From assembly GCA_020055645.1 (NCBI GenBank), contig CM034546.1, forward strand, positions 106,148,875 through 106,212,874: a stretch of 64,000 bases of DNA, read 5' to 3'. This document shows positions 26,114-32,129 of the stretch, in pieces (the stretch's first letter is position 1; each line of letters starts with the position of its first letter). Source of the DNA: Tomocerus qinae. Its lineage: Eukaryota > Arthropoda > Collembola > Entomobryomorpha > Tomoceridae. A model generated the notes under the pieces. That model searched no databases and was not told the DNA's origin. It worked only from the letters and a program-made list of their open reading frames with translations. The position numbers and the translations under genes were made by a program.

Positions 26114-27899
26114 GATTGGGTTATTCGAAATGGAAAAAAGGATGGAAGTTCAATATGCAGTTAGATAAACAATACCCGTCCCTGGACAAAATAGACCCTT
26201 TCTAAAGAAAATAAAGGTAAATGGTCTATAAGAGTACGGTGACATCCAGCCGGAAATAAAAATTGATTATTTCCCTTTCCTACTCATGCAGCAACATAGA
26301 CTAAAACATGTCTTTGTACAATAAGACTGCTATTGCTATTGAGATATAGCTGCAACTGCCAATTTATTGTGCTCTTGACCAAACGTCGGTTGTACAGATA
26401 GGTATTGGTGCTATCCTTTATGTACTATTTTAGTTTCCATAGGGTTAGATTTGTCGCCCGTCCGGTGTGTTTTAAATTGGGTTTTAACCTGTGACAGCTA
26501 TGTCACGCCTTACTGCCCTGTACGAAAGTCATTTGGATATGATCGCTAGGCTGTTTCCAGTTTCGGGGAAGGAATGTGAAAAACATATAAAATTGGGCAA
26601 TGGTTATTTTCAGTCTGCACTCTGTACATGTTCAAACAAATTACCTTTTTATTAACCTTAATTGTAATTATCAATTATTGAAACGTAACTCATTACAAAT
26701 TAAGGATAAAAACATGAAGCTACGGATGATGGATATTTGTTATTGAAATCAATGAAATATTTACATTTTACGTATTTAAATGAGAATACAGATATAGCAC
26801 TGCACTTTGAAATAGTTGTGGAGGTCATTGTTGCGTCTCATTGGATGTTGTAGCCAGTAAGTCCAGGAAATAAATAGCAAAGACCGGGGACGAAAGCGGT
26901 GAGAAGGCCGAGTTAAATTGCAATAAGGTACCCACATATTTAGAGTTGATCCACATATTACGTAATCAAAAATTTATCGTTTTTAGAAACACCTTTTCCC
27001 CCTGTCATCAAATGTCAACATTTAATTAGTTAATTTGAATTGAAAATGTTTATTTTTATTTTTTGGTTTATTTATTACCCAATTCTATTTAGTACTTATT
27101 TAAATGAGAATATTGCACTGTACTATCTGTAATATAATAAGATTTAGTACAGTGCCATATATCGGACGGAAGGAATATATATTGTCATTGTCACTTCAAC
27201 CTACCCATTCTTCTATGCAATATCTAATATCTGCCCTTACACATATTGTGGCAATTGTGAATATACTATATAAGAATAGTATTTACTATGTACTTAATGT
27301 GTAATAAGCTAAGTGAGAGTTACTGTGCCACTATCGCATATCAGATGAATGATAATGTGAATTACGATAATAATTATAATTAGGGCAATTAACCTCATAG
27401 TTTCTTACAGTTATGTTTTATAGAAGAATGGGTAGGTTGAAGTGACAATATATATTCCTTCCGTCCGATATACCGATATATGGCACTGTACTAAATCTTA
27501 TTATATTACAGATAGTACAGTGCAATATTCTCATTTAAATAAGTACTAAATAGAATCGGGTAATAAATAAACCAAAAAATAAAAATAAACATTTTCAATT
27601 CAAATTAACTAATTAAATGTTGACATTTGATGACAGGGGGAAAAGGTGTTTCTAAAAACGATAAATTTTTGATTACGTAATATGTGGATCAACTCTAAAT
27701 ATGTGGGTACCTTATTGCAATTTAACTCGGCCTTCTCACCGCTTTCGTCCCCGGTCTTTGCTATTTATTTCCTGGACTTACTGGCTACAACATCCAATGA
27801 GACGCAACAATGACCTCCACAACTATTTCAAAGTGCAGTGCTATATCTGTATTCTCATTTAAATACGTAAAATGTAAATATTTCATTGATTTCTTCTAA

Positions 27900-28291
27900 T
27901 AGGCAGTTAGTTTTATCCCTTAGTGTAACTTTGGGCTTTGCGTAGGGTAAGTCTTTACGCGGCTTCCTTTTCGAAGCTTACTTACACTACGGTTACGTAG
28001 AATAGTTAGTGATTTTCCGTAAGTATTTGGTTGCTAGGTGCCACAATTTCTAAAATTAACTTTGTAGAATAAACATGAATAATGCCAGTCGCCTGGGTAA
28101 CTACATCCTGGGAGGGCACTAGGGCACTTGCGTATGCCCGTAAGTCTGAAACGTAGTGTAGTCATTTTTACGTTTCGCAACTCAATTTTTCTGGCGTAGC
28201 CTAGGATTCTTACGGAAAGGGGAGGAGTTTGACGTAAGACTTACACTACGGGAGGCTCATTCTTACACTACGAGAAAAAACTAACTGCCTA
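27900..28291. mobile_element. MITE A in the right arm of P
   Basis: A 392-bp insertion absent from the left arm. TIRs begin TAGGCAGTTAGTTTT at both ends and stay similar for about 30 bp through GTAGTGTAA. The flanks could give a TA or TAA target duplication but the left flank has changed, so this is not resolved. Interior: several CTTACACTACG/CGTAGTG motifs in both orientations. No coding capacity. Confidence 0.8.
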
Positions 28292-28448
28292 ATAACAAAT
28301 ATCCATCATCCGTAGCTTCATGTTTTTATCCTTAATTTGTAATGAGTTACGTTTCAATAATTGATAATTACAATTAAGGTTAATAAAAAGGTAATTTGTT
28401 TGAACATGTACAGAGTGCAGACTGAAAATAACCATTGCCCAATTTTAT

Positions 28449-28784
28449 TAGTTAAAGTTTTTATACTCTTACTAACTTTTCGCTTCACGTTGTGAGCCGT
28501 TGTAAGAGTTAAAGGACTGTGGCCCAAAACTTTGGCTCCGGGAGACAAAATCTGCCTCCAACTCTTTCTCGACTTTCACGTTATGTGGCGTTATGAGTTA
28601 GATAATCGCAAACAATAAAGGACAGCCGCCTCTAGCAAAACCACTTGAGTTGAACCACTTGAGGCGGCTAACGAACATACGAACATTCGGCGGACTGTTC
28701 GTACGGTCTCATTTTCGATAAAGACTCATCTTTATCCTTGTTTTTGCGGTTGGTTTTAATATCGCTTGGTCAGTCTCCTAACTA
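28449..28784. mobile_element. MITE B in the right arm of P, 9-bp target duplication
   Basis: A 336-bp insertion. The duplicated target CAATTTTAT stands at both ends (28440-28448 and 28785-28793) and occurs once in the uninterrupted left arm. Ends are TAGTTAAAG...CCTAACTA, a short TIR of six to seven bases. A 9-bp duplication is typical of Mutator-like elements; superfamily assignment is inference. Confidence 0.75.
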
Positions 28785-29184
28785 CAATTTTATATGTTTT
28801 TCACATTCCTGCCCCGAAACTGGAAACAGCCTAGCGATCATATCCAAATGACTTTCGTACAGGGGTGGCATCACGTATCTTTTCAAATAAGCCGCTTAGA
28901 TATAATCCAAAGTTAACCCGAGTTTAACCGTAAATATAACCTCATTCTGTAGCAAAAAGTAATATGGCTCAACTTTGGTTCAAACTAAACCATGGTTTAA
29001 CTTTTTTAACCACAATAGTTTGATCCCCATAGCTACTCCTACATGTGGATGATGGGTCAAATTACTAATGTGGTTTGCAGATTTAAAAATATAGTTTATA
29101 TGAGTCTTCAAGTTTACTTCCAAAATAAAAGTGTCCATGACTACCATACTTTCCCACCTAGGTATGCTGTAATGTGCGGAGACC

Positions 29185-29310
29185 CCCCCTGGCCGACGAA
29201 GTCGGCCAGAGACCCCCCTTGGCCTAAGAAGTATTGAGACCCCCCCCTGGCCGACGAAGTCGGCCAGGGGACCTTAAACTCACAAAAAAGAGAAGACCTA
29301 CCCCTCCTGG
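29185..29310. repeat. C-rich perfect-hairpin repeats inside element C
   Basis: Two copies of CTGGCCGACGAAGTCGGCCAG, which is a perfect 9-bp stem around a GAA loop, each preceded by a run of six or seven Cs. A diverged copy (CCCCTTGGCCTAAGAAG) lies between them and a half copy at 29308. Confidence 0.75.
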
Positions 29311-29504
29311 CCGACTTCAAATTTAATATGAATAACAAAATTTAAATAATACGATGAAAATGCAGTATTAATTTTTAATGTTGTTAACCATTTTATTATT
29401 ACTGTTTTAATATCAGCGGGACGTGCTGGATTCAAGGACGTATAGAGGGATGGGCTTTCGAAATCCATGAAAAAGAGAATTTTTTCTCAAGAAAATGGCA
29501 AAAA

Positions 29505-29915
29505 ATGTCGCGCTCCGCGCGATTATTTGCCATTTTTATGCCATTTTAGACTCATTTCCGTCAAAAAATACCAAAATTTTTTCACGCTCCGCGCGAGTAT
29601 TTGCCATCTTAGGCCATTTTAGACTCTTTTCCGGCAAAAAATGCCAAAGTTTTTCGCGCTCCGCGCGATTATTTGCCATTTTTATGCTATTTTAGACTCA
29701 TTTCCGTCAAAAAATACCAAAATTTTTTCACGCTCCGCGCGAGTATTTACCATTTTAGGCCATTTTAGACTTATTTCCGGCAACCACAGCCAAAGTTTTT
29801 CGAGCTCCGCGCGATTATTTGCCATTTTTAGGCCATTCTAAAAAAATGCCAAAATTTTTACGCACTCCGCGCGATTATTTGCCATTTTTAGGCCATTTTA
29901 GACTCATTTGAAAAT
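29505..29915. repeat. About 73-bp minisatellite inside element C
   Basis: Six units, starting at CGCTCCGCGC or a variant at 29511, 29585, 29657, 29731, 29803 and 29863 (spacings 74, 72, 74, 72, 60). Odd and even units differ (GCGATTATTTGCC versus GCGAGTATTTGCC), giving a higher-order period of about 146 bp. The similar-looking ORFs across it are by-products of the repeat. It is much more GC-rich than its surroundings at the CTCCGCGCG core. Confidence 0.85.
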
Positions 29916-30616
29916 CTTAGCCCTCTCCGAAATTCAATTCTGTATACGTGCTTGGCTGGATTTTGTGCATATATGATGAAATGTGTCCAAAAATCTCTGT
30001 GAGGCTCGTTTATACCTAATTTTTAGCAATGGTGCATATACTTCAAACAAAATATTGACATTTAAGGCAGCGTTTGTTTATCACTGATAAAAAATTATAT
30101 GGTCGTTTTCCTATACCGCTGCGTCCCCTTTTCAAAAAAATTTCGCGCCCCTTACGGGGCGCGCCCCGCCTATACCCCCCAGAAAAAGTACAAGATTAAC
30201 CCATTAGACCCCCCTTGGCAATGTACCCAGTGGGAAAGTATGATGACTACCTACGCTGAGATTTGGACTTGGACTATAAAGTATGAGAAAATACAATGCA
30301 AAATAACATTATTATCAGACTTAATCCACCTATGAGGCTGGATTAACTTTTTGGGCTCAATTCGTGGTTTGAACTTGACGTTTAAAGTTACAGAATATGC
30401 GTATTCGCTAATTTAAGTCAAAGTGACGATGACTTAACTTTTTCTCATCTTTTGTTGTCTCAGCCATTTTATTTCCGGTTATAGAATAGGTTTAAGTCTG
30501 GATTAGAAGATAACCCGATTATTTCTGGCTTAACGAAGTTACGTAATGCCACCCCAGGGCAGTAAGGCGTGACATAGCTGTCACAGGTTAAAACCCAATT
30601 TAACACACACCGGACG

Positions 30617-30915
30617 GCATATATATGGAAACTATAATACTATAAGGATATTTCTATATGACGCATTGTCTATACCTTCAATGTTAAAAAATTTTCATTC
30701 TTGTGATTGGAGGGAGTCATTGAGCGAGGTCTCCTCCGCAATCTTTTAAAATGAAGTGCAATTTATTTACATACAGTGACTAAAACCGGTGACTAAAACC
30801 CCATCTTCATATGGAAGCATTTAATTTTTTTGCGGTTTGGGACTAGCCATGTCATATGATTTTTATTGTAGTTTTCTCAATGTTTAATATAGTATTATAG
30901 TTTCTATATATATGC
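30617..30915. mobile_element. MITE D in the right arm of P, 6-bp target duplication
   Basis: A 299-bp insertion with 28-bp TIRs (GCATATATATGGAAACTATA and one-mismatch mirror). CGGACG is duplicated at 30611-30616 and 30916-30921; the left arm of P has it once. No coding capacity; superfamily not recognised. Confidence 0.8.
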
Positions 30916-31010
30916 CGGACGGGCGACAAATCTAACCCTATGGAAACTAAAATAGTACATAAAGGATAGCACCAATACCTATCTGTACAACCGACGTTTG
31001 GTCAAGAGCA

Positions 31011-31290
31011 AGGCTTCATGTAGTATAAGTAAGACAGTGTGTGCGTAGTAAGGTTGGCTCACTTGGGTGTTTGGGAAAATAAAATTCAATTTTTTGTCTA
31101 TACTCAAAGCTATGACCCACCAAGACATACGTATCCAATGGAAACCATCCTTGGTCATTGAAAGACAGATTTGGCTGTGGATCCAAATTGTCCAATTTGG
31201 ATCCACAAATGAAAAAACTGAATTTTCATTTTCCAAACACCCAAGTGAGCCAACCTAATACGCAATCACTATGACTACAGCCAATCTTGG
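31011..31290. mobile_element. Insertion E in the right arm of P, 10-bp target duplication
   Basis: A 280-bp insertion bounded by GTCAAGAGCA at 31001-31010 and 31291-31300, found once in the left arm. Its own ends (AGGCTTCATG...CAATCTTGG) have no clear TIR. Most of its length is a further inserted MITE (F). Confidence 0.7.
31050..31255. mobile_element. MITE F nested inside insertion E
   Basis: Near-perfect TIRs of 23 bp (GGTTGGCTCACTTGGGTGTT at the left and its mirror at the right) flanked by TAA on both sides. A 3-bp TAA target is typical of PIF/Harbinger MITEs. The inside has another palindrome, GGATCCAAATTG/CAATTTGGATCC. Confidence 0.8.
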
Positions 31291-31508
31291 GTCAAGAGCA
31301 CTATACCAAACTTCTTCCTTATTGGTTTAGAATTAGCGTTACCCTTGGCTATTGGTTGTTACCCTTGGCTATTGGTAGTGAGTAATAACACGTGGGTATA
31401 ATATAAACTGCACCATGGGGATAATACGTTTATAGCATTCTTAGAGTAAGCGAAGCGACAACCCACCAAAAATTACATCTTCTTTGATGCAGCAATAGCT
31501 CATTCAGT

Positions 31509-32077
31509 GGGCCTACCCCTTTTTGTCAACACCATTTTGTCAACAAACTATTTTTAGAAATCACTTTTTGTCAACACATAGTAAGCTTTTTGTCAACACA
31601 TGCACATGTAAGTTGTATGGTGTATAATATGTATAATAATATGTGTATGCAAAACATGATTTATAATAATTATTTGTCCACGAACGGATAATTGTGAAGC
31701 ATGCAAACCTTTCTTAACAAAAAATATCCTCAGACTATTCTAAAACTTAAAAAAATATTCGAAAGTTAACCAAAATGACTCTCTAAGTGAATTTATATCA
31801 TTGCTAACAAATTATAAAATCTTCGAATATTCGGGATACTTTTCTTACTGATTGTTTGGCTTATTTAATTGTTTGATTTAATCTAGTACAAGTACTAATA
31901 GCCATTACTTATTTTTACCATTAAGTCAGAATTAATTTTTAAGGTATAGCATCAATAACAGTTGTGTTGAAAAAAAAATAATTGCTGTTGACAAAAAATA
32001 TAATGGTGTTGACAAAAGGTGTTTTCGATTTTTTTGCTCTGTTGACATTTTAGTGTTGACAAATTGGGGGTAGGTCC
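31509..32077. mobile_element. TIR element with TTTGTCAACA repeats (about 569 bp)
   Basis: Ends are GGGCCTACCCC...TTTGTCAACA and its near mirror TGTTGACAAATTGGGGGTAGGTCC. Each end carries extra TTTTGTCAACAC or GTGTTGACAAAA copies as subterminal repeats, probably transposase-binding sites. The flanks ATTCAGT and ATACAGT suggest a 7-8 bp target duplication with one change, compatible with hAT. No ORF of note. Confidence 0.65.
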
Positions 32078-32129
32078 ATACAGTATATTGTTTCATTAGG
32101 TTCGTTGTTGTAGGGGCTAGCCATAGACT

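Follow-up and report, generated by a model that had tools for sequence, protein, structure and literature searches.

Galileo, a Drosophila transposon of the P superfamily, is described as having long inverted arms, a small middle and many non-coding copies, with other transposons inserted in the arms (PMC3573991, PMC4168063); its arms are 98-100% identical within a copy, and some copies are chimeric (PMC3573991). Here we analyzed a window of 64,000 nucleotides from the collembolan Tomocerus qinae (GCA_020055645.1, contig CM034546.1, positions 106,148,875 to 106,212,874 of the forward strand), which holds a nest of transposons built around a foldback element that we call P. P resembles Galileo in all of these respects. 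It differs in two others, as far as the cited portions of the Galileo reports go: Galileo makes a 7-bp target duplication and has transposase-coding copies, whereas the flanks of P share TA only and no coding copy was found. P was rejected as a Galileo-like element on account of its duplication. Chimeric Galileo copies have been linked to rearrangements, and one P copy at another locus, L011, resembles such copies.

Tetris/DAIBAM of Drosophila virilis is likewise a non-coding foldback family whose autonomous partner was not found, although, according to the sections cited, its duplication measures 8-10 bp and its arms contain internal tandem repeats (PMC4079207). The same source, in the part used here, links most foldbacks to Mutator, and Tm1 and other Mutator/foldback elements share the foldback architecture with P (PMC3169594, as excerpted). 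We also tried P as a Mutator-type foldback and rejected this, since no duplication of about 8-11 bp was found. Duplications of about 9 bp are expected for Tm1 and the Mutator foldbacks, against TA in P. Tc1/mariner elements such as Bari target TA, as P does. Long inverted repeats are described for some of them, Bari included (PMC4877112, in the text available). No transposase was found in or near P. With regard to clustering, the available portion of a report on DcSto elements of carrot, which are miniature inverted-repeat transposable elements (MITEs), describes a preference for clustered insertion across several MITE families, like the nest studied here; these are plant elements, and that portion does not report them inside foldback arms (PMC3695323). 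The sources retrieved on foldbacks, mariner-type foldbacks and nested MITEs, represented by partial texts, name no foldback family with a TA duplication, Galileo and Tetris making 7-10 bp, and this silence is weak evidence. The modest novelty of the locus is a foldback family that targets TA. If true, it would strengthen the idea, cited in the available text of PMC4079207, that foldback elements can originate from more than one transposon lineage.

Order of insertion in the nest

The nest spans 26286-31495 and all its members are non-coding DNA transposons. Element G is interrupted by P, P by A, B, C, D and E, and C by H, as read from target duplications and from copies elsewhere in the genome. 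All eight target duplications are identical letter for letter between their left and right copies, and together with the identity of the arms of P over about 850 bp this lies far beyond chance. Non-coding DNA transposons thus very probably entered the locus one after another, each on its own; it is a real nest, unusually legible and ordinary in kind. P entered after G, A to E after P, and H after C, with an empty site as support for each step and, for G, its target duplication. The relative order among A to E is unreadable from the locus, since the five lie side by side. A preliminary description of the window had proposed a nested stratigraphy, and its overall order holds, backed by these empty sites and duplications. 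Two of its links do not, namely an element F inside E and a neighboring G copy as the empty site of P, and the insertion of H into C escaped it.

The window belongs to a 140-Mb contig in a 334-Mb assembly, and copies of each element were searched for across the whole assembly. G, the outermost element, lies at 26295-31486 with 253 bp of its own sequence, interrupted by P at 26367-31303. Its 9-bp duplication, ATGCAGCAA, stands at 26286-26294 and, in a comparison of letters, at 31487-31495. Its right end was corrected to 31486; among 39 other matches spanning it, 24 halt at exactly this base and 14 extend 1-14 bases further. When the flanks of P were joined over a single TA, the junction was crossed by all listed matches (43/43), of which 12 reach 100% after rounding; the scored set comprised 40 of 194 candidates. 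These contiguous flanks bear out the interruption of G by P and establish a genuine empty site with TA as the duplication. The neighboring G copy, at 32121, was rejected as a clean empty site, the 43 listed matches elsewhere serving in its place. It is more distantly related, with a similarity of about 89-92% to the left part of G, and a reading of its letters shows about 18 bp missing at the site of P.

The alignment of the two arms of P bears out the claim that five inserts lie in the right arm while the left is uninterrupted. A (388 bp, 27902-28289) is flanked by TAATA at 27897-27901 and 28290-28294, the duplication being read as TAATA when the ancestral site is taken from other P copies. 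B (336 bp, 28449-28784) lies between copies of CAATTTTAT at 28440-28448 and 28785-28793, D (297 bp, 30618-30914) between copies of CCGGACGG at 30610-30617 and 30915-30922, and E (281 bp, 31009-31289, the former F included) between copies of GGTCAAGAG at 31000-31008 and 31290-31298. The left arm and other P copies, aligned at these sites, supply the empty sites for A to E. Some of the duplications had been described differently: CAG of C agrees, but D has 8 bp instead of 6, E has 9 instead of 10, and that of A reads TAATA.

The genome search that had been suggested for further copies of the inserts found close relatives of A, B, C, D, E and H. Four other copies of A are at 100% after rounding, as are 21 of the 39 other scored copies of D; for B, the 40 scored candidates include 14 further copies of full length (94-100%), one of them at 100% and another at 99%; and copies of E at 99% occur among 39 scored. 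Given relatives that are 98-100% identical and the small divergence of the arms, all inserts are young. The duplication lengths, 5, 9, 3, 8 and 9 bp for A to E and 8 bp for H, point to several different enzymes. The 8 bp of D and of H fit the hAT length, which makes both putative hAT elements.

F was rejected as a local insertion into E, since 36 of the 39 other scored E copies carry it in a single match running from query base 20 or earlier to base 290 or later, the remaining three starting at 31, 42 and 51; the best 40 of 265 candidates were scored with a query that is mostly F, so that E copies without F would score low. E and F thus moved as one unit; F may have been acquired at an earlier time, by an ancestral E.

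C, in turn, is a second-level nest that the preliminary description overlooked. It has 586 bp net at 28863-30554, between CAG at 28860-28862 and 30555-30557, and is split by H, a 1098-bp element with internal minisatellite repeats at 29145-30242, flanked by ATGACTAC at 29137-29144 and 30243-30250. At all 12 other C places showing both outer parts of C, the parts are contiguous with a 9-bp overlap at the site of H and are 96-99% identical to those here; at one of them (L045, 98.8%) the empty site of H was read base by base. The H duplication is nevertheless 8 bp, because an H copy elsewhere (L040, 99.8% identical) is flanked by an 8-bp repeat, so the ninth overlapping base is a chance sharing. 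As for C itself, TWA is the common target of PIF/Harbinger elements, and CAG does not fit it. The length of its duplication is the 3 bp described for PIF/Harbinger in the cited excerpt of PMC2213677.

In the course of events that these data record, G inserted with its 9-bp duplication, and P, a non-autonomous foldback, then entered a TA within G and duplicated it. A, B, C, D and E entered the right arm of P separately, with duplications of 5, 9, 3, 8 and 9 bp, and H entered C with one of 8 bp. Movement would have been by cut-and-paste, with transposases supplied in trans. Among the listed matches for queries A to E, the whole arrangement was seen nowhere else, and the full-length query including the flanks of P was matched by this locus only.

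With an untouched arm and other copies serving as internal controls at nearly every level, the locus is well suited to teaching and to testing software for the detection of nested insertions. It also displays the pitfalls of reading a sequence by itself, namely E and F taken for a nest and H in C overlooked.

The foldback family of P

P measures 1909 bp net (26367-31303) and is flanked by TA at 26365-26366 and 31304-31305. By the arm alignment, the left arm occupies 26367-27216 on the plus strand and the right arm, which holds A to E, 27420-31303 on the minus strand, with a spacer of 203 bp at 27217-27419 between them. Arms of about 850 bp each in 1909 bp place P in the foldback class, and the same two-arm build recurs at L010, L012 and L014. 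The proposed palindrome is indeed present: when the five inserts are omitted, each with a single copy of its duplication, the arms are homologous over their whole length, and 4 substitutions and 3 indels separate them.

P is a dispersed multicopy family with a TA target duplication; its left arm has at least 55 genome matches, the best 40 of 594 first-look candidates having been scored. We compared 31 other P loci, 30 fetched from the genome and one further locus reached by a protein search. Copies with both ends have the termini TATTGT...ACAATA or close variants, and beyond TA no flank repeat was seen in them. Consistent with Tc1/mariner duplication, the empty site holds a single TA and P has TA on either side. 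By this TA rule, a Tc1/mariner-type transposase is the first candidate for moving P. Some P copies have an open frame of 75 amino acids in the spacer, with 7 genome matches and open frames of up to 84 amino acids; it is conserved (L014:3880-4104 and several other spacers) and identical in three places, and could possibly be a remnant of the coding parent of P. Two identical P copies with the same flanks, L012 (G000:C5:23889000-23896500) and L013 (G000:C5:23863500-23871000), lie 25.5 kb apart, apparently by tandem segmental duplication.

The arms of the present copy differ at 3 of 841 positions (0.36%; tip beyond E omitted), while the nearest arm of another locus is at 1.5-1.9%. Both arms have substitutions in common that are private to this copy, and they pair as sisters (100/99) in a tree built from 49 arms, whose bootstrap had not settled. 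Starred sister pairs occur at seven loci (this one, L010, L014, L015, L017, L021 and L030) and a weaker pair at L037; L033-L035 and L012/L013 form near-identical sets, and L016, L026 and L029 do not resolve. Relative to other copies, the left arm has 3 derived substitutions and a derived 4-bp deletion, the right arm 1 derived substitution. That the arms of this P copy lie nearest to each other among those sampled would be explained by a common template or by subsequent copying between them.

Taken together, these results allow a tentative proposal, which we regard as a possibility well short of probable. P could represent a foldback lineage derived from a TA-targeting transposon and not from Mutator or P elements, with arms kept alike within most copies and acting as a sink that records recent activity of small transposons, so that an interrupted copy would be a dated log of transposition.

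Several observations weigh against the main account of the locus, that of successive insertions into a foldback whose arms are alike. The nearest arm belongs to another locus in L009, L011, L028, L029 and L038, and in L026 the two are about equal. At L011 (G000:C1:102968500-102976000) the arms fall in different clades, with 28 differences in 637, and this locus is best read as a chimeric P copy. In the present copy the 8-bp and 6-bp indels look left-derived, their polarity being taken from one copy, L009. The private 4-bp deletion in the left arm (26744-26750) falls exactly at the site of A. L018 is deleted beside the same spot; an excision footprint of A, or chance, is possible, and the former is not favored because the spot is indel-prone. 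Furthermore, no coding parent or transposase of P was found in the genome, and the arrangement is known from the assembly alone.

One P copy does contain a coding segment. Between the P arms of L038 (G000:C4), a segment of 2.4 kb at 4293-6577 matches DUF7869 (Pfam PF25273, 42.1 bits, cut-off 26). A second copy of this element (G000:C2:58737289-58739872, 98%) shares this end to the base but lies outside any P arm; its inverted ends measure about 33 bp at 91%, with AATT on either side. The segment was therefore rejected as the transposase of P, the second copy ending outside P arms with its own inverted end and AATT, and is read as a separate transposon that landed in P. One of its frames has 157 genome matches, many of them open; the name DUF7869 was absent from our literature search, and no relative was found in the PDB at E <= 1. 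The multicopy frames, inverted ends and AATT flanks suggest that DUF7869 is a transposase domain.

Density and one-sidedness of the inserts

We considered whether foldback arms are preferred targets, either because a palindrome extrudes or replicates abnormally and attracts insertions, or because copies with broken symmetry are more stable and collect more of them. The arms of the present copy, about 1.7 kb in all, hold five inserts, as compared with five clear ones, or seven if probable ones are counted, in the 37.6 kb of arm that was aligned at the 31 other loci. This gives a Poisson probability of five or more of 4e-6 to 2e-5, a comparison on which we do not rely: best matches were taken first (40 of 594 scored), which favors unbroken P copies and under-samples broken ones, and the present copy was chosen for its complexity. 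L043, which was found outside the arm search and carries two inserts, also agrees with preferred targeting. On the other hand, the comparison covers P copies only, and at least four duplication lengths mean that a single targeting enzyme cannot account for the inserts. We therefore consider preferred targeting unlikely.

The restriction of the inserts to one arm had been called striking if chance alone acted. The two-sided probability of finding all five in one arm is 2 x (1/2)^5 = 0.0625, and other P copies are interrupted in either arm, so the pattern is not striking beyond chance. Clear inserts occur in the left arm of L018, L021 and L043 and in the right arm of L017 and L043; probable ones lie in the left arm of L028, where the insert runs on into sequence shared with that of L018, and in the right arm of L038. 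A reading of L028 and L038 as retaining a shorter original arm was withdrawn. A process such as copying of arm onto arm that deletes inserts, or asymmetric replication, could in principle account for five inserts on the right and for the uneven derived changes, namely 3 substitutions and 3 indels in the left arm and 1 substitution in the other. Yet the value of 0.0625, the interruption of both arms in L043 and of either arm in other copies, and the left-derived changes, which speak against recent overwriting of the left arm by the right, leave such a process very improbable. Chance is most likely the reason for the restriction to one arm.

An artefact of assembly, in the palindrome or in the nest, can be dismissed almost completely: long inverted repeats are known to cause assembly errors and the assembly is our only source for the locus, but two-arm P copies exist at other places (L010, L012, L014), all inserts have matching duplications, and the changes in one arm differ from those in the other.

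Beside the nest, a further MITE-like element with inverted TTTGTCAACA-type repeats probably lies at 31500-32073. Within the window, a Pfam comparison of seven frames gave low-density lipoprotein (LDL)-receptor class A and BTB/BACK matches above the cut-off, and trypsin and ligand-gated channel matches below it.

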